From Akkermansia biwaensis (GTDB lineage: Bacteria; Verrucomicrobiota; Verrucomicrobiia; Verrucomicrobiales; Akkermansiaceae): a stretch of 64,000 nt of DNA. Of this stretch, positions 30,891 to 40,889 are shown piece after piece. The DNA lies in the NCBI RefSeq assembly GCF_026072915.1, contig NZ_AP025943.1, positions 1,116,001-1,180,000 of the forward strand, given 5' to 3'. The notes below the pieces were generated by a model. It was not told where the DNA came from. It worked only from the letters and a program-made list of their open reading frames with translations, and searched no databases. Position 1 is the first letter of the stretch, and each line of letters begins with the position of its first letter. The translations under genes were made by a program, and so were the position numbers.

Positions 30891-33101
30891 TCAACGCACT
30901 TTGACCCGGAGCGGAGTCCGGATGCAATCGCGGACGCGGCGCACCTCTTTTTCCCATTGTTCAGCGGACTTGACGGGAGAAGCCTTGCTCCATACCGCCC
31001 CCATGTACCAGTCAAAGGAATTCCCGCTCTTCATGGAGCGGGTCCAGTAGGAGCATCCCTCCCCATCCTCCGCGGCGCCATCCGGCGCCCACGGCACCAT
31101 AACGGCGGTTCCGAAACAGCCGTTATCCCCCCTGGGCCTGCTCCATGCGGCCACGATTCCGGCTTCCCGGTCCGCCGTGACAACTTCATAACTGTTCCTT
31201 TTCTTCCCGGTATCCATGCCAGCACCGACTCGGATTTCCGAAGAATTGCCCCCGTTCAGGGTCACGGAACTTCTTACCCTTGTGAAATGGCTTCCGGCAT
31301 CCAGAGTCACCTTCCTGGTCTCGGCAGCCTTCATTCCTCCTCCCACGTTCCACGGCGCGTAACTTACTTCAAAGGCGGTCTGAACAGGTCCGTTGTACAG
31401 GGTCCGCACCCTGGCCCAGTTGCTGGAAACATGGGCTTTCCCGTCTCTGAACACGGCAATGCCGCCGCATCCGCGTCCGGGTCCCACATGGTACATGTCC
31501 AGTCCGTTGCCGCGGTCACGGTGATAATCTCCCTTCTTGTAAAATTCATTAATTACAGGCACCCCTGCCTTCTTGCTCCATACGTCCGTTCCGCTGGAAA
31601 CAAGCCCCTCCCCCTCCGGCGCAGGCCTGGAAACTGCCGGACCGTAAATACGGTGGGCCGTACGGTCGTTTTCCCACGCAAAATCGTCCAGCCGCTCCGG
31701 CACATGACGACTGAAGCACACCTCTTCCGCAGGAGCGGCATCCAGGGAGGAATTCTCCAGAATCCAGAAATCGCGGGACGCTCCCGCGCGGAAATTGCTC
31801 TGGAACAGCAGGGTGTCCATCCTGCCGTCCCCATCGGTATCCGCCAGCTGGTGGACAATCACGCAGCCGTTGCGCACGTCAAACACGCGCAGCCGGGAAG
31901 AATCCCGCCCTTTTCCGGGATTCCACGGAACGGACACCGTTTCCCGGGGCCGGAAAACATTCAAGGGGTTGGCGACGGAAACGGTCTTCCGCCGCGGATG
32001 ATCTTGACGAATCACCCATTTGCGCAGTTCACAGCCGGCCAGAAGGTAGGCTCCGGAACCGTACACCTCCGTATCATTTCCGGAATAATGCCCCGGTTTG
32101 TCCGCGATCGGCTGCACCCAGCCCAGCGCTCCCTCCGCGTTCACGGCGTCGCAGGCCGCCTGCCATGCCTTCCGGATGACGGGCAGGTATTCTTTTTCGT
32201 CCAGGTAACCCTGGTTCACGCCCCACATCATGCCGTACATGATGAAAAGGGTTCCGCTCATTTCCTTCAGGGGCGGTTCGGCGGGGTCCATCAGGCTGGC
32301 GTGCCAGGAACCGTCGGGAGACTGGCATTTTTTCAATGCCGCCGCCATGCGCTTGAGCAGGTTCACGTAAAAGGTCCGCGTGGGCCAGTCCCGCGGCATG
32401 TCCTGCAGAATCATCGGCAGCCCGGCAATCACCCAGCCGTTCCCGCGGCTCCAGAACATCTTCTTTCCGTTGGCCGCCGGAATGGTGAAGTAGCGGGAAT
32501 CCCGGTAAAACAGGCCTTCCTTCTTATCGAACAAATAATCGTATGCGGCCTTGTATTCCCGGTCCATGAACTCCAGATACCGGCGGTCTCCGGTATAGGC
32601 CGCCAGCTTCGCGAATACGGGGGGCGCCATGAACAGGGCGTCCGACCAGCACCAGCGGTCCTGGCATCCGGGCGTCTGGAATTTAAGGGAGGCGGACGAG
32701 GGCCGGGCCATCACCTTGTCCAGAACGGCACGGATTTTTTCGGCGGCGGCGGGATTTCCATCTTCCATGGCCATCTCCATCCAGGCATGGCCGATCACAT
32801 GGTCATCCGCATGGTAGGGCCGTTTCAGAACGCCCCATTGGCTCCCTTCCCCGACCGTCCTCACGGCCTGAAGCTTCATGCTCTGCGGATGGGCCAGGGC
32901 ATACTGCACCAGGCCGGAATAAAACGCCCCGTAGGTCCAATGCAGATGGGAACGCTTGACGGGATGGGCTATCTGCCACGAGGCTACAAGTTCAAGATTT
33001 TCCCTGATGGTTTTCTCCTTCCAGTCCGCAGGAGCGCCGGAAGCAACTCCGAATAAAGATAAAAAAGACAGGAACAGGACCAGAATCCTTTGTTGCAGCA
33101 T
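30891..33101 (-). CDS. GH105 unsaturated uronyl hydrolase fused to a DUF4861 domain
   Basis: A protein of about 736 residues with a signal peptide (MLQQRILVLFLSFLSLFGVASGA). Residues ~20-370 form the alpha/alpha-barrel of GH105: HADDHVIGHAWMEMA, then CWSDALFMAPPVFAKLA and FWSRGNGWVIAGLPMIL. Family members hydrate and cleave unsaturated galacturonyl or glucuronyl ends left by lyases on rhamnogalacturonan or glycosaminoglycan-like chains. The C-terminal half (~400-736) resembles DUF4861, with YHRDRGNGLDMYHVGPGRGCGG. Starts at 33134 or 33128 are possible but would lengthen the signal n-region. Confidence 0.83.
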   Translation of the reverse strand: MLQQRILVLFLSFLSLFGVASGAPADWKEKTIRENLELVASWQIAHPVKRSHLHWTYGAFYSGLVQYALAHPQSMKLQAVRTVGEGSQWGVLKRPYHADDHVIGHAWMEMAMEDGNPAAAEKIRAVLDKVMARPSSASLKFQTPGCQDRWCWSDALFMAPPVFAKLAAYTGDRRYLEFMDREYKAAYDYLFDKKEGLFYRDSRYFTIPAANGKKMFWSRGNGWVIAGLPMILQDMPRDWPTRTFYVNLLKRMAAALKKCQSPDGSWHASLMDPAEPPLKEMSGTLFIMYGMMWGVNQGYLDEKEYLPVIRKAWQAACDAVNAEGALGWVQPIADKPGHYSGNDTEVYGSGAYLLAGCELRKWVIRQDHPRRKTVSVANPLNVFRPRETVSVPWNPGKGRDSSRLRVFDVRNGCVIVHQLADTDGDGRMDTLLFQSNFRAGASRDFWILENSSLDAAPAEEVCFSRHVPERLDDFAWENDRTAHRIYGPAVSRPAPEGEGLVSSGTDVWSKKAGVPVINEFYKKGDYHRDRGNGLDMYHVGPGRGCGGIAVFRDGKAHVSSNWARVRTLYNGPVQTAFEVSYAPWNVGGGMKAAETRKVTLDAGSHFTRVRSSVTLNGGNSSEIRVGAGMDTGKKRNSYEVVTADREAGIVAAWSRPRGDNGCFGTAVMVPWAPDGAAEDGEGCSYWTRSMKSGNSFDWYMGAVWSKASPVKSAEQWEKEVRRVRDCIRTPLRVKVR

Positions 33102-33134
33102 GTTGAATGAGAGAGTAAATTGTTGCATATTCAT

Positions 33135-33829: not shown

Positions 33830-35926
33830 ATGGCGACAAGCATCATCAAACGTTCCGGAAAGAAGGAACCATACCAGGGCTACAAGATTGAGGAAGCCAT
33901 TAAAAAGGCATTCCACAGTTCCGGCACCGTTTACAACCGCGCCATTTATGAAGAGGTGGAGGCCAAGCTGGGCCACCAGGACAACGCAACCGTAGAGGAA
34001 ATCCAGGACCTGATTGAACGGGCCCTGTTCCGCTGCGGATACTTTGAAACCGCCAAGGCTTTCATCACCTACCGCTTCCTCCACAAGATGCAGCGCGAAC
34101 AGATCGCGGGCCTGTATTCCGGCAATACGTATGTGGACTGCAAGCTGACGGTGGAGGAATACATCGGCCAGAGCGACTGGCGCATCGCCGCCAACTCCAA
34201 CACCACGTATTCCAATGCCGGGCTGATCAACAACACCGCCGGCAAGGTGATCGCCAACTACTGGCTGGACCAGGTCTATTCCGCACGGGAAGGCGCCGCC
34301 CACCGGGAAGGGGACTACCACATTCACGACCTGGACTGCCTGACGGGCTACTGCGCGGGCTGGAGCCTGCGCAACCTTCTGAATGAAGGGTTCAACGGCG
34401 TGCGCAGCCGCGTGAACAGCCGGCCGCCCCGCCACTTCCGGGAAGCCCTGGGCCAGATGGCCAACTTCCTGGGCATTCTGCAGAGCGAATGGGCCGGAGC
34501 CCAGGCGTTCAGCTCCTTTGATACTTTCCTGGCCCCTTACGTTTTCAAGGACCAGGCGGACTTCACGCGCATCAAGAAGGACATCCGCAGCTTTGTGTAC
34601 AACCTGAACGTTCCCTCCCGCTGGGGGCAGTCCCCCTTCACCAATGTGACGATCGACTGGACCGTTCCGCGCGACCTTCAGGACCAGCCCCCCTTCAGCG
34701 GAGGAGAGCACCTGTTTGAAGGAGTGGAAGACCCCGCCCTGCTCTTCCTGGCCAAGGAACGCGGGGTGAACAGCCTGACGGAATTGACCTACAAGCACTT
34801 CCAGAAGGAAATGAACCTGATCAACAAGGCCTTCTATGAAGTGCTCACGGAAGGCGACAGCACGGGACAGCCCTTCACCTTCCCCATTCCCACCGTCAAC
34901 ATCACGGAAGACTTCGACTGGGAAGGGGAAAACGTCCCGCTCCTGTTTGAAAACGCCGCCAAAATAGGCTCCTCCTACTTCCAGAACTTCATCGGCAGCC
35001 AATACACCGTCAATGAAAACGGGGAACGCGTGCCTGACGAACGGGCCTACAAGCCGGACGCCGTGCGTTCCATGTGCTGCCGCCTCCAACTGGACCTTCG
35101 GGAACTGCTTAAACGCGGTGGCGGCCTGTTCGGCTCCGCGGAAATGACCGGCTCCATCGGCGTGGTGACCATCAACCTGGCGCGCCTGGGCTACCTCTTC
35201 AAGCAAAACCGGGAAGCCCTGTTCGCACGGCTGGGGGAACTGCTGGACCTGGCCAAATCCTGCCTGGAAAAAAAGCGCGCTTTCGTCCAGGAAATGTATG
35301 ACCGCGGCCTGTACCCCTACACCAGGCGCTACCTGCCCACTTTCCGCAACCACTTTTCCACCATCGGCGTCAACGGCATGAACGAGCTGCTGCGCAACTT
35401 CTCCAACGACTCCATGGACATCACCACGGAGGAAGGCAGGAAGTTCGCGGAAGAAATCCTGGAATTCATCCGCCTCCGCATGCAGGAATACCAGGAGGAA
35501 ACGGGCAACTTGTACAACCTGGAAGCCACTCCCGCGGAAGGCACCACGCACCGCTTCGCCCGGGAAGACCAGAAACGCTACCCGGACATCATCCAGGCCG
35601 GCCCTGTGGGCCAGCGCTACTACACCAACAGTTCCCAGCTCCCCGTGGACCACACGAACGACCTGTTCCGGGCTCTCCAGCTCCAGGACGAACTCCAGTG
35701 CTGCTATACAGGGGGCACCGTCTTCCACATGTACATGAATGAAGCCATCAGCTCCCCGGAAGCCTGCCGGGACATCGTCCGCAAGGTGCTGACCCGCTTC
35801 CGCATGCCGTACCTGACCGTCACCCCTCTCTTCTCCGTCTGTGAGAAACACGGCTACCTGCGCGGAGAGCACCAGTACTGCCCCTTCTGCGACGAGGAAC
35901 TGCTCCACATCCACAGGCACGAATAA
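33830..35926 (+). CDS. nrdD: Anaerobic (class III) ribonucleoside-triphosphate reductase, catalytic chain lacking the glycyl-radical domain
   Basis: A 698-residue class III reductase that makes deoxynucleotides without oxygen. An N-terminal ATP-cone (residues ~3-95, IIKRSGKKEPYQGYKIEEAIKKAF) provides allosteric control. The ten-stranded barrel carries the active-site cysteine C175 in TGYCAGWSL. The C-terminus holds a partial zinc site (C671, C684, C687 in VCEKHGYLRGEHQYCPFC) and then stops. The glycyl-radical loop RVxGY that normally follows is missing here. It is encoded by the next gene in another frame, 49 bases later. An upstream NrdR box and B12 riboswitch suggest tight control. Confidence 0.93.
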   Translation: MATSIIKRSGKKEPYQGYKIEEAIKKAFHSSGTVYNRAIYEEVEAKLGHQDNATVEEIQDLIERALFRCGYFETAKAFITYRFLHKMQREQIAGLYSGNTYVDCKLTVEEYIGQSDWRIAANSNTTYSNAGLINNTAGKVIANYWLDQVYSAREGAAHREGDYHIHDLDCLTGYCAGWSLRNLLNEGFNGVRSRVNSRPPRHFREALGQMANFLGILQSEWAGAQAFSSFDTFLAPYVFKDQADFTRIKKDIRSFVYNLNVPSRWGQSPFTNVTIDWTVPRDLQDQPPFSGGEHLFEGVEDPALLFLAKERGVNSLTELTYKHFQKEMNLINKAFYEVLTEGDSTGQPFTFPIPTVNITEDFDWEGENVPLLFENAAKIGSSYFQNFIGSQYTVNENGERVPDERAYKPDAVRSMCCRLQLDLRELLKRGGGLFGSAEMTGSIGVVTINLARLGYLFKQNREALFARLGELLDLAKSCLEKKRAFVQEMYDRGLYPYTRRYLPTFRNHFSTIGVNGMNELLRNFSNDSMDITTEEGRKFAEEILEFIRLRMQEYQEETGNLYNLEATPAEGTTHRFAREDQKRYPDIIQAGPVGQRYYTNSSQLPVDHTNDLFRALQLQDELQCCYTGGTVFHMYMNEAISSPEACRDIVRKVLTRFRMPYLTVTPLFSVCEKHGYLRGEHQYCPFCDEELLHIHRHE

Positions 35927-35975
35927 CTCCCTTTTCAACCAGCCGCCTCATTTCAACCCAATCATCGAAACGACA

Positions 35976-36170
35976 ATGACCAAACAGGAAATACTAAGCA
36001 AATACGCCCAGGACCGCACCCGCTGCACCGTGTACACGCGCGTCATGGGCTACCACCGCCCCGTGGAAACCTTCAATGCCGGCAAGCAGGGCGAATTCCA
36101 CGACCGCGTCCACTTCGTGGAACCGGGCGCTCCCTGCAACTGTTCCCCCCGCACGGAACAGCCCCGCTGA
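35976..36170 (+). CDS. Stand-alone glycyl-radical domain of class III ribonucleotide reductase
   Basis: A 64-residue protein that corresponds to the extreme C-terminus of NrdD. It has RTRCTVYTRVMGYHRPVETF with the radical glycine G25, then NAGKQGEFHDRVHF. C17 precedes the loop, and a CNC motif lies near the end. It is separated from nrdD by 49 bases with a stop, a frame change and its own ATG, so a single-base frameshift cannot explain the split. nrdG follows 26 bases later. By analogy with the autonomous glycyl-radical cofactor YfiD/GrcA of pyruvate formate-lyase, it may dock on NrdD to supply the radical. That is inference. Confidence 0.82.
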   Translation: MTKQEILSKYAQDRTRCTVYTRVMGYHRPVETFNAGKQGEFHDRVHFVEPGAPCNCSPRTEQPR

Positions 36171-36196
36171 TTTTCCCAATAACATATGCGAAGTCA

Positions 36197-36913
36197 ATGG
36201 GAACGGGTCGGGGCATAGCGGACATCACGCCGCTCACCTTGCTGGACTTTCCAAACAAGGTGGCCTGCATCTTCTGGCTGGGAGGCTGTAATTTGTTTTG
36301 TCAGTACTGTTACAACGTCTCCCTGGTCAAAAATGCGGTCCCCGGAACCGGCGGACGAACGGACTACCTCAACTTCCTCAGAGATCGGGTGGGATTTCTG
36401 GACGGAGTGGTTTTGTCCGGAGGCGAATGCACGCTGTGTCCCGACCTTATTCCCATCTGCCGTGAAATCCGGCAGCTCGGCTTCGCCATCAAGATAGACA
36501 CCAACGGAACGCGGCCTTCCGTCGTGAAGTCCCTGGTGGAAGAAGGGCTTTGCGACTACATTGCCCTGGACTACAAGGCCCCCGCCGAACAGTACGGCGC
36601 CGTCACGGGAAGGCCCGGCCTGTTTCCGTTCTTTTCCAGAACGCTGGACTATCTGATTGCCTCAAAAATCCCTTTCGAAGTCAGAACGACCGTGCACCCG
36701 GACCTGTTGACGGAAGATCACGTCAACACCATCATACGCGACTTGACAAAGCGGGGTTATGAAGGCAACTACTTCGTGCAAAATTTTTACCAGACCACAC
36801 AAACGCTCAACTCTCTCCCCACGCCGGACCGCCCGTTTGACCGGAGCAGGGTGGATTCATCCTCCCTCCCCGTCCAATTCCGCAACTTCGACCTCGGCAA
36901 CGGAAGAAACTGA
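36197..36913 (+). CDS. nrdG: Anaerobic ribonucleotide reductase activase (radical SAM)
   Basis: A 238-residue radical SAM protein with the cluster motif CNLFCQYC (C31, C35, C38) in the context LTLLDFPNKVACIFWLGGC. SAM-binding segments follow: VVLSGGECTL, FAIKIDTNG and DYIALDYKAP. It generates the glycyl radical on the reductase, here presumably on G25 of the small upstream protein. It starts at 36197; an ATG at 36186 is out of frame. It forms the third gene of the reductase operon and is 11 bases from the transporter gene. Confidence 0.92.
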   Translation: MGTGRGIADITPLTLLDFPNKVACIFWLGGCNLFCQYCYNVSLVKNAVPGTGGRTDYLNFLRDRVGFLDGVVLSGGECTLCPDLIPICREIRQLGFAIKIDTNGTRPSVVKSLVEEGLCDYIALDYKAPAEQYGAVTGRPGLFPFFSRTLDYLIASKIPFEVRTTVHPDLLTEDHVNTIIRDLTKRGYEGNYFVQNFYQTTQTLNSLPTPDRPFDRSRVDSSSLPVQFRNFDLGNGRN

Positions 36914-36924
36914 TACCGCCCCAC

Positions 36925-38538
36925 ATGTTCGACATCCTGCTCAACCACAACACCCTGGTCCTTTTCGGAATCATCTTCTTCGGCATCGCCCTGGGCAGCA
37001 TTAAAATATACGGCCTCAACCTCGGCCTTTCCGGCGTGCTTTTCGTGGCGCTTGCCGCCGGCCACTACCGGCTGGCCATTCCCAATGGAGTGGGGCAGCT
37101 TGGCCTGGCGCTCTTCGTGTACTGCGTGGGGCTGAGCGCAGGCAACCGCTTCTTTTCCGCCATCGCCAAGCAGGGCAGCAAACTGGCCGTGATGTCCGCC
37201 GTAATTGTGGGCGTTTCCGCCCTGTTCACCTGCCTGTGCGGCATCTGGTTCAATGTGCCGGCGGGTATTTCCTCCGGCATCTTTGCGGGGGCCTGCACCA
37301 GCACTCCGGCGCTTGCGGCCGCCACGGAAAGCCTGCCCGGGGCTTCCGGCAGCGGCGTCAGCATTGGCTACGGCATCGCCTATCCGTTCGGGGTCGTAGG
37401 CGTGGTTCTGTTCGTTCAGCTCCTGCCGCGCCTGCTGCACTTTGACCTGCACAAGGAGGCCAGGGCCATGCACGCCAAGCAAGAAGCCAGCATCATTTCC
37501 CGCCTGGTGCGCGTCAACCAGCCCAACCTGCTCGGCCAAAACATTGCGGACTGCAAGCTGCTGGACGGCCTGCACTGCATGGTGACCCGCGTGGTGCGCG
37601 ACGGCAGGCTGATGCCCCTGACGCCGGAAGACACCTTCCGGGAAGGGACGGAAGTCCTCATCGTAGGCAACAGCGATACCATGCCGCACGACATCGCGTT
37701 CCTGGGGGAAGCCTGTGAAAACCCCTACCCCATGGACTCCCAGAAGGAACGCCGCAAACTGATCCTGACCAACAAGGACTATGCCGGACGCAAGCTCCGC
37801 GACCTGAAAACCCTCCGCACGGACGGCGTCATCATCTCCCGCATTTCCCGGCTGGGGTTCACCTTTGTCCCCACGGGCGACACGACACTGGAACGAAACG
37901 ACGTGCTGACCGTCGTCGGTTCGCCGGAAAACCTCACCAAATACGGGGAAAAAATCGGCCACCGCAGCCAGGACATGAACCAGACGGACCTCCTTTCCCT
38001 GGGATTCGGCCTGTCCCTCGGCATCATTCTGGGGCTGGTCAACTTCAGCCTGGGCAACGGAATGGGCATTTCGCTGGGAATTGCCGGCGGTCCGCTGATC
38101 GTCGCCCTGCTCCTCGGCCACTTCGGCCGCCTGGGGCCCATTGTGGGGTACATCCCGCGTCCCACACGCCTGCTTCTTCAAGACCTCGGCCTGGTCTTCT
38201 TCCTGGCAGACGCGGGCATCAAGGGCGGCGCGGACCTGGTGGACACGGTGGCCACCCACGGCGCGGCCGTCTTTGTGATGGGCATCATCGTCACCTGCGC
38301 GGGCATGTTCTCCGGCTACTTTGTCGGCATGAAAGTCTTCAAGATGAACATTCTGGAATGCCTGGGCGGCATCTGCGGCGGCATGACCTCCACCCCGGCC
38401 CTGGGCGCCATCGCCAGCAAGACGGATTCCCAGGCCCCTGTGGTCAGCTACGCTACCGCCTACCCCGTGGCCCTCATCCTGATGACTATCATCGCGAAGG
38501 TCATCATCCAAACCATCGGCGGTGTGGTTGGCGTATAA
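36925..38538 (+). CDS. AspT/YidE-type transporter with RCK_C (TrkA-C) domains
   Basis: A 537-residue membrane protein. Two homologous membrane halves (residues ~1-165 and ~355-537) contain the AspT/YidE duplication motif, seen as AGACTSTPALAAATESLPGA and again GGICGGMTSTPALGAIASKT. Between them lie two TrkA-C regulatory domains, with REGTEVLIVGNSD and NDVLTVVGSPENL. Family members exchange amino acids such as aspartate for alanine, but many are uncharacterised. It is 11 bases from nrdG and may be co-transcribed with it, although no functional link is obvious. Confidence 0.87.
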   Translation: MFDILLNHNTLVLFGIIFFGIALGSIKIYGLNLGLSGVLFVALAAGHYRLAIPNGVGQLGLALFVYCVGLSAGNRFFSAIAKQGSKLAVMSAVIVGVSALFTCLCGIWFNVPAGISSGIFAGACTSTPALAAATESLPGASGSGVSIGYGIAYPFGVVGVVLFVQLLPRLLHFDLHKEARAMHAKQEASIISRLVRVNQPNLLGQNIADCKLLDGLHCMVTRVVRDGRLMPLTPEDTFREGTEVLIVGNSDTMPHDIAFLGEACENPYPMDSQKERRKLILTNKDYAGRKLRDLKTLRTDGVIISRISRLGFTFVPTGDTTLERNDVLTVVGSPENLTKYGEKIGHRSQDMNQTDLLSLGFGLSLGIILGLVNFSLGNGMGISLGIAGGPLIVALLLGHFGRLGPIVGYIPRPTRLLLQDLGLVFFLADAGIKGGADLVDTVATHGAAVFVMGIIVTCAGMFSGYFVGMKVFKMNILECLGGICGGMTSTPALGAIASKTDSQAPVVSYATAYPVALILMTIIAKVIIQTIGGVVGV

Positions 38539-39182: not shown

Positions 39183-40889
39183 ATGAATCTCATTTTACGG
39201 AGCGCTATCTTTTGTATGGTTGCATTGGCAGGTTTTACCTCTGTCCGTGCCAATCCTTCTGAATACAACATTCAGAACCTACTTGCAGTCGGACGCTCTT
39301 CTGCCATCTCCGACGAGACTCGAAATATCTTGCGCAGCCGGCTTGATTTCGGCCCCCTGACCATTGAGAAAATACATGAAATGGTCCAATCCTCCCAAGT
39401 GGCACAGCTATGCTATTTAAGCCAATTTTTTAATAATGCCGGGAGTGAAAAACCATATACTCAAAGTGAACTGCGTGATAAAGAGTTCACGGCATGGCTT
39501 TCCCGGCATCCTGAAATTTTCAAGATGCTTGCCCATTCCGGCTATGCCAATCGAAACGTTCTCAGCGTATTTTATCAAATTTGGAAAGTAAAAGATAAAA
39601 AACTCACCCCTGTCGAAATCAGCATGGCACTGGGAGCCGGACTAGCTGCCAATACTTTCACTATTGAGGAATGCATTGCCAAGTTTAACTTTTACCAGGA
39701 TTCCCATCATCACGGCAGATGCTACCCTCATGCAGATACTCTTCAGCCTTGGGAGTGGGCTATTGTACTTCAGGGCAGAGAAAGTATTGAAGATCTAACA
39801 TGGGCACAACAGTTCATTGAAGGAAAAAAAATCAAATCTGCACAGGCAGGAGATAAATTCACCAGATTTATCCCTTACCGCTTGAAAAATCATAAGGGCA
39901 TCAGCGTACATGCCGGAGGAGCTTTTTATGATAACAAACCCATCACCCTGAAACTCTATACGGAATATGGAGGGGTATGCGGCGCCGTATCTAAAGGAGC
40001 TGCAGGATTTTTACGGTCCAAAGGTGTCCCAGCCTATCCAATAGGCCAACCCGGTCACTGCGCCTTCGTTTGGAAGCATCCCAATGGACACTGGCAAATC
40101 GGCAATAATATCGGCGGCTGGAACTGGGCCAACGGGGGAGCCCAGATTCCATGGAAAGGCTCCATCCAATTTGTTCCCACTTATGATGCCTTTATTCACC
40201 ATCCCAATGCGGAAAAATCGACTCTGATGTACTACCTCTCCCTATGCACGCAAAAATCAGCACATATAGAGTTGTTATTGCAAGAGGCATGTAAAGCCAA
40301 TCCTTTTAATTATCCGGCATGGCTCCATTATTTGAAGATTAAGAGTAAAAACGCAGATGATCAAAAGAAACTCACCTGCCTTAAAGAGTTAACTCAAGCT
40401 ATGCCCAATGAACACAACCTTATTTGGCATGTGGCGAGTAAAGTGCTAAACATCCGGGAAAACAGGGTTGATCCATACGAACTTTACTCATGCGTGCTCG
40501 GTCCCGATTGCACACCTCACGCAGAAGAACTCTTCAACCGCCTAGTTTGGAACAGGCTTGTTGCCGATTGCCCTGAAATCAAAAGCATCACCGAATATAA
40601 AGCAGGATTCACAGGAAACCATCTGTCCATCTGGACTCAAAAAGGGGGACACGCCAAATGGACTCCCAAAATGAAAAAGTACTCCGCCAGGATGTTGCAG
40701 AATGCGATTGTTGCACTGGAGGGGAGGGACAAGACGAGGGAACGCTACATAGAAGCCTACCAAAAATTGTTGAACATCTGGAATGACGGAAAGTTAAGCC
40801 AAGAGGGAAAAGAGTTTATCAGAAAAATTTCCAATCTGACGAAAAACGACGTCGGAATGGACTCCAACACCAAAAAGAAATTGACATGA
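39183..40889 (+). CDS. Secreted protein with a transglutaminase/papain-like Cys-His core
   Basis: A 568-residue exported protein (signal peptide MNLILRSAIFCMVALAGFTSVRA). The centre shows a cysteine-protease or transglutaminase-like layout: GGVCGAVSKGAAGFLRSKGV with C266 at the start of a helix, GHCAFVW with H292, and WQIGNNIGGW, where N308/N309 takes the place of the usual Asp. The N- and C-terminal regions are helical and unrecognised. It is the first of three secreted-protein genes in an AT-rich island and overlaps the second as ATGA. Function unknown; a peptide or cross-link processing role is inferred from the fold. Confidence 0.68.
   Translation: MNLILRSAIFCMVALAGFTSVRANPSEYNIQNLLAVGRSSAISDETRNILRSRLDFGPLTIEKIHEMVQSSQVAQLCYLSQFFNNAGSEKPYTQSELRDKEFTAWLSRHPEIFKMLAHSGYANRNVLSVFYQIWKVKDKKLTPVEISMALGAGLAANTFTIEECIAKFNFYQDSHHHGRCYPHADTLQPWEWAIVLQGRESIEDLTWAQQFIEGKKIKSAQAGDKFTRFIPYRLKNHKGISVHAGGAFYDNKPITLKLYTEYGGVCGAVSKGAAGFLRSKGVPAYPIGQPGHCAFVWKHPNGHWQIGNNIGGWNWANGGAQIPWKGSIQFVPTYDAFIHHPNAEKSTLMYYLSLCTQKSAHIELLLQEACKANPFNYPAWLHYLKIKSKNADDQKKLTCLKELTQAMPNEHNLIWHVASKVLNIRENRVDPYELYSCVLGPDCTPHAEELFNRLVWNRLVADCPEIKSITEYKAGFTGNHLSIWTQKGGHAKWTPKMKKYSARMLQNAIVALEGRDKTRERYIEAYQKLLNIWNDGKLSQEGKEFIRKISNLTKNDVGMDSNTKKKLT

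Follow-up and report, generated by a model that had tools for sequence, protein, structure and literature searches.

The class III ribonucleotide reductase locus of Akkermansia biwaensis encodes the catalytic chain and the glycyl-radical domain as separate proteins

Class III ribonucleotide reductase supplies the building blocks of DNA and is sensitive to oxygen, which cuts the enzyme at its radical glycine. To our knowledge, this glycine lies inside the catalytic chain in the class III reductases of known structure. In a 64,000-nucleotide stretch of the Akkermansia biwaensis genome (the window), the catalytic chain NrdD ends without the radical loop, and a small gene located between nrdD and nrdG encodes a 64-residue protein that contains it. 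The question is whether these genes encode one enzyme in two chains, and what the separation is good for. We assign a probability of roughly 0.86 to the reading that the locus encodes a two-chain class III reductase, which consists of a catalytic chain and a non-covalently bound, replaceable radical subunit of 64 residues that a phage can also supply.

The features of the locus are summarized in Table 1. The three genes lie in the order and at the positions that had been read from the letters of the window without database searches (the sequence-only reading).

Table 1. Features of the split reductase locus, numbered from the first nucleotide of the window
Feature	Position	Strand	Evidence
nrdD, catalytic chain, 698 aa	33830..35926	+	NF006126, 1059 bits
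Parts of NrdD: ATP-cone (residues 4-86), barrel, finger loop and zinc site, with the glycyl-radical loop absent		+	Profile matches
C417 codon (motif MCCR), likely thiyl-radical cysteine	35078..35080	+	Alignment to P. copri Cys416
Zinc site CxxH x9 CxxC (C671, H674, C684, C687)	35840..35890	+	Invariance in 40 sequences
Gap between nrdD and the small gene, 49 bases	35927..35975	+	Length and frame differ among species
Stand-alone glycyl-radical protein P0002, 64 aa, RVMGY	35976..36170	+	Pfam NRDD match
Codon of the radical Gly25 in the small gene	36048-36050	+	RVMGY loop
nrdG, radical-SAM activating enzyme, 238 aa	36197..36913	+	TIGR02495 (NrdG2), 182 bits

NrdD covers positions 2-651 of the 684 positions of NF006126 and positions 2-536 of the 562 positions of Pfam NRDD (PF13597), and its ATP-cone matches PF03477 with 63.9 bits. 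The small protein matches Pfam NRDD at positions 532-562 with 33.6 bits, which is above the curated cut-off of 26.2 bits. These two matches bear out the claim that NrdD lacks the radical loop and that the small protein is the missing domain. The NRDD barrel, the ATP-cone and a nearby NrdG activase, which are features of class III reductases, are all present at the locus. The feature that NrdD lacks, a C-terminal radical glycine, is located on P0002. The RVMGY loop is invariant in a 10-row alignment of small proteins.

The zinc ribbon of NrdD is read from its sequence. C671, H674, C684 and C687 are all invariant in an alignment of 40 sequences, and T. maritima NrdD binds zinc via CxxxHx6CxxC (PMC4493059). 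Because of this invariance and this precedent, the zinc site of the window is probably complete within the large chain, with His674 as the fourth ligand. The sequence-only reading had described the site as partial, with three of the usual four cysteines, and had proposed that C17 of the small protein completes it in trans. NrdD does lack a fourth cysteine, but the site is probably not partial, since His674 is present and invariant, and C17 is probably not the fourth ligand in this window. A metal site completed in trans does fit the second split clade (clade B, see below).

The radical of P. copri NrdD passes from Gly711 to Cys416 (PMC11226230). C417 of the window NrdD aligns with this cysteine, when the numbering of the PDB sequence (743 residues) is taken as four higher than that of the paper (739 residues), and is likely the thiyl-radical cysteine. 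Both C416 and C417 are invariant in the 40-sequence alignment. C175, which had been named as the partner of the radical glycine, is probably not this partner. It is invariant too, and the T4 cysteine that matches it is presumably the second active-site cysteine.

We propose the following mechanism. The large chain, which has the ATP-cone, the nucleotide sites, the finger-loop cysteine and a probably complete zinc site but lacks the radical glycine, would bind the 64-residue protein beside its zinc ribbon, in such a way that the RVMGY loop of the small protein is pushed into the NrdD barrel. NrdG would put the radical on Gly25, and the radical would then be transferred from Gly25 to C417 to start catalysis. 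A copy of the small protein that is cut by oxygen may be replaced by a new copy, and a phage may bring its own copy to its benefit, because the radical part is separate and would be bound non-covalently. Judged from the sequences, it is close to forced that the small protein gives the glycyl radical in trans to a chain without one, because no further class III chain or NRDD radical domain is encoded in the genome: the single contig of 3.18 Mb contains no NRDD match beyond the two pieces. A second full-length nrdD elsewhere, which the sequence-only reading had named as counter-evidence if this locus were silent, is not present in the genome. One class I/II-type reductase frame is present, so that the split class III enzyme need not be essential in A. 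biwaensis. Exchange of the small protein after oxygen damage, and its supply by phages for this reason, are suggested by analogy with YfiD and Y06I of T4, and the idea of a spare part gains indirect support from radical domains that occur on their own in prophages and in viral contigs.

The split enzyme is found in other bacteria. When named genomes are scanned with the small-protein alignment, which favours close relatives of the stand-alone query, at least 570 relatives are detected. A catalytic chain is present in 79 of the best 80, which were examined. All 79 chains, some of which are fragments at contig ends, stop short of the radical loop, with their ends 43 to 918 bases upstream. The 80th locus (L211) has a run of N ahead of the loop. 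The split hosts among these best 80 include Akkermansia, Campylobacter, Sulfurospirillum, Sulfurimonas, Flavobacterium, Algoriphagus, Aquabacterium, Rubrivivax and Vogesella, together with Omnitrophota and Lentisphaeria, and the groups represented include Campylobacterota, Bacteroidota and Burkholderiales. An oddity of Akkermansia only is ruled out by these splits across named genomes of several phyla.

The phylum samples are less biased, and each of them counts its centre genome, which was picked because it is split. NRDD is found in 26 of the 249 genomes of Pseudomonadota, of which 18 have the enzyme in one piece, 7 have it split and 1 is assigned to neither class. It is found in 56 of the 121 genomes of Campylobacterota, where 13 are in one piece and 39 are split, 11 across an in-frame stop and 28 in two frames. 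The remaining genomes of Campylobacterota are three assigned to neither class and one (G716) with distant radical domains only. The open-frame data cannot separate a fused gene from an in-frame split in G485, G643 and G711, which are therefore assigned to neither class, and the chain alone is visible in G743. Plasmid pHG1 of C. necator H16 encodes a 676 aa 'ribonucleoside triphosphate reductase', a 66-aa 'nrdD' and an activase. NrdDG of this strain is reported to be essential for complete denitrification (PMC2864759), and therefore the split enzyme works in a living cell. In public annotation, some of the small genes carry the name nrdD, with no role stated in the entries viewed.

The survey of nrdD-nrdG loci across Verrucomicrobiota that the sequence-only reading had called for reveals two types of split, but also many fused genes. 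Among the 89 loci fetched, 12 are split as in the window, 31 are split otherwise, 44 are fused and 2 (L103 and L109) are disrupted. At the 31 loci of the other type, the break falls within the zinc ribbon, of which C, H and CP stay on the chain, and a cysteine is located near the front of the small protein, mostly in the motif M[A/S]KC. The fourth zinc ligand of this type (clade B) appears to be brought in trans by the small protein.

A tree was constructed from 85 representatives of 211 chains, from which the C-terminal columns were left out and 8 fragmentary or disrupted chains were dropped beforehand. Support was calculated by a quick method as SH-aLRT only, and the root was not inferred. 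Clade A, which is the window type, contains 45 split and 2 fused chains (SH-aLRT 97). The fused members are encoded on plasmids and come from Acidiphilium and Actinomyces. Clade B consists of 17 split chains, which form one group (SH-aLRT 100) apart from clade A. The tree requires at least four changes between the split and fused states in all. The simplest reading is that fission took place twice, because the clades are separate and the break points are different, with the direction of change in this unrooted tree being a matter of interpretation. The presence of two fused members in clade A indicates that the separation is not indispensable.

Free radical domains are also found in phage-like surroundings. 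Extra radical domains that are not linked to the chain occur in genomes with a split chain, namely those of Campylobacter concisus, a Helicobacteraceae MAG, G752 and G716. Next to the extra domain of C. concisus lies an ORF which, judged by eye, is similar to the phage endolysin beside the L255 domain. The Helicobacteraceae MAG has two extra domains, one near a terminase and the other near an ORF that is integrase-like by eye. In an Akkermansia MAG, a radical domain follows a portal gene.

IMG/VR was scanned with queries of both types. The type-A scans, from which the best 80 of 138 and the best 80 of 128 relatives were taken, give 145 loci with 93 distinct domain sequences, and 143 of these loci have no catalytic chain in the locus, the exceptions being L332 and L347. 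The type-B scan, from which the best 80 of 168 relatives were taken, gives 80 loci, of which 77 have no chain and 3 have a fused NrdD. When 50 whole viral records, which were picked from the type-A loci and may be fragments, are analysed, 48 have the domain and no match to the catalytic chain; one of these (G597) has an additional weak match of 27 positions. The other two records are G626, which has a chain and a domain, and G609, which is below the threshold. A cysteine 12 residues before the glycine is present in 58 of the 63 distinct type-B viral sequences and in none of the 54 type-A sequences, a contrast that is partly built in by the use of both types as queries, with the cysteine itself lying outside the search patterns. 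This cysteine would be the fourth ligand of clade B. The nearest cellular relatives of the viral domains match plausible hosts; for example, L258 is 0.94 identical over 36 residues to C. concisus, L270 is 0.94 identical to Flavobacterium, and L310 and L311 are 0.89 identical to Akkermansia.

All seven type-A small proteins tested match phrog_4132, a family of unknown function in PHROGs, with 37.8 bits for P0002 of the window and 76.7 bits for the L255 protein, and neither of the two type-B proteins tested matches it. The phage side offers a likely function for this orphan family. In a collection of named phages, the type-A queries detect 7 and 3 records, all below 60% identity, and the type-B query detects 3 records, of which one, an unannotated gut record, has 63% identity and the other two have less than 60%.

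The main competing explanation is that the fission of the domain is neutral. According to this explanation, the two chains form a permanent complex without exchange, and what phages carry would be inhibitors, decoys or captured fragments. The two fused members of clade A are consistent with a fission that is neutral and reversible, and the neighbours of the phage domains are varied: L255, L261, L267 and L311 have lysis genes next to the domain, L034 has a portal gene and L430 a helicase, so that lysis, head and replication genes are all represented. However, the two split clades are placed separately in the tree, the free viral domains retain the radical loop and the bacterial zinc types (to which the bias of the queries applies), and additional unlinked copies exist in bacterial genomes that have a split chain. 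We regard neutral fission as rather unlikely, but as the alternative to be taken most seriously. The wider reading that we favour, with some reserve, is that the radical domain split off as an exchangeable subunit at least twice, at two places and in several phyla, and that phages carry only the host-fitting subunit of 40-90 residues, by which dNTP synthesis may be kept or restored and, in clade B, the zinc site of the host may also be completed.

Another explanation is that the two frames are translated into one chain through recoding, be it by frameshift, bypass or read-through. The sequence-only reading had excluded a simple frameshift on the ground that the linker contains a stop and does not read as coding. 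The linker is in fact open in the frame of the small gene (35841-36170), which leaves room for recoding in the window, and the exclusion of a frameshift comes from the comparison of species alone. The sample of relatives contains 59 genomes including that of the window, and 36 genomes of the genus in it, the window's own counted, have a readable junction. Together with 12 further genomes of the genus from the phylum search, 48 readable junctions are available, and nrdD is split in all 48, single-contig assemblies among them. G011, in which the contig ends inside nrdD, and G327, which gives no match, lie outside these 48. Within the genus, 160 to 247 bases separate the zinc motif from the radical loop, the frame of the small gene is offset from that of the chain by 0, 1 or 2, at least one stop lies between the two frames, and no shared slippery site is seen by eye. 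Each small gene starts with its own ATG, and the gap and frame are arranged differently again in other phyla. Because all 48 genomes are split while the length and frame of the linker differ, sequencing error and frameshift are excluded, and it is confirmed that the split is real and conserved. Recoding in any form is very unlikely.

The small protein could also serve another glycyl-radical enzyme, pyruvate formate-lyase (PFL), as YfiD/GrcA does, and small stand-alone glycyl-radical proteins of that sort do exist (PMC8683613). However, P0002 matches NRDD, and Gly_radical (PF01228) is absent from its Pfam matches at an E-value of 1, by which identity with GrcA is ruled out. The sole PF01228 match in the genome is a 770-aa frame elsewhere. 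NrdD lacks exactly the piece that the small gene encodes, and an nrdG match then follows in all 50 genus loci, starting 38-258 bases past the core of the radical domain. A role of this kind is highly improbable. A sequencing error or a decaying pseudogene, finally, is refuted by the genus counts and by selection, since the core of the small gene, located by a motif that fits all 50 genus loci, has a median dN/dS of 0.069 (1061 of 1225 pairs kept after the divergence filter), which represents strong constraint and is accompanied by a median of 0.089 for a 220-codon part of NrdD.

The enzyme shares the ATP-cone (where present), the NRDD barrel, the finger-loop cysteine, the zinc ribbon, the RVxGY loop and the NrdG activase with the NrdD/NrdG systems of P. 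copri, T. maritima, phage T4 and E. coli, and differs from them in that the radical loop is located on a separate 64-aa protein and, in clade B, in that the zinc site is apparently divided. YfiD/GrcA and Y06I of T4 are likewise small autonomous glycyl-radical proteins that act in trans, and Y06I is phage-borne as well, but they belong to another family and, as described, repair a PFL with a radical domain of its own (PMC8683613). In contrast, the chain of the window has no radical domain, and the genome offers no NRDD-type source apart from the small protein. The class II reductase NrdJa/NrdJb also consists of two chains, with the division close to a C-terminal zinc part, but it is B12-dependent, and its separated part is described as other than a radical domain (PMC9669993). 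The nrdD gene of T4-like and Jug phages is in several pieces as well, which the accounts consulted attribute to introns, inteins and homing endonucleases or leave unexplained (PMC3653736, PMC12363816), whereas a conserved radical subunit with its own start is present here. A full-text search of the literature, which covered few subscription journals, so that earlier notice is possible, finds no description of the split.

With the radical subunit on its own, replacing the damaged part of the enzyme would be cheap. The authors of the YfiD study consider that spare parts may exist for further glycyl-radical enzymes (PMC8683613), and P0002 is a concrete candidate for such a part. The phage side also suggests a minimal route by which a virus may aid nucleotide synthesis of the host. 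The radical subunit, the catalytic chain and the activase could be mixed and tested individually.

The small protein gives one weak, unrelated match to solved structures. The AlphaFold model of the read-through chain of a relative has the class III fold, with a mean pLDDT of 75.6 and a pTM of 0.70. The pLDDT is below 50 for residues 416-439, a region that touches the finger-loop cysteines, and averages 49, by our own count, over the block of ten residues that starts at the radical glycine. The 36 best Foldseek matches of this model are all class III reductases.

Verrucomicrobiota also contain another split form of NrdD, designated clade B (L113, L116, L132 and further loci fetched from the phylum). 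The terminus of the chain of this form falls within the zinc ribbon, and its small protein mostly starts with MAKC or MSKC, the zinc site being apparently completed in trans by this protein. The radical loop is often RVCGY, in which a cysteine residue adjoins the radical glycine. At L128 and L129 (G331, G253), two stand-alone radical-domain genes, with the loops RVCGY and RVVGY, are located in tandem 3' of one clade B nrdD chain.

Many of the fused NrdD relatives (L076-L105, from G196 and G115 for example) contain, as judged by eye, a glutaredoxin-like stretch, such as LFTTTTCPNC, after the radical domain. This stretch is perhaps a built-in reductant.

Genes near nrdD and nrdG in the window are listed below.

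Genes near nrdD-nrdG in the window
Product	Position	Strand	Remark
GH88 and DUF4861 protein	30891-33134	-	Upstream of nrdD
Asp-Al_Ex permease with TrkA_C domains	36925-38538	+	Directly 3' of nrdG
568-aa protein	39183-40889	+	No match in Pfam search at E 0.001

The radical domains encoded at the viral loci L315, L308, L313, L325 and L329 have a Cys-rich N-terminal extension, which may form a metal site of its own. In an Akkermansia MAG (G002), a phage portal gene is directly followed by a free radical domain (L034:1460-1613), and capsid-like genes are recognized by eye farther along.
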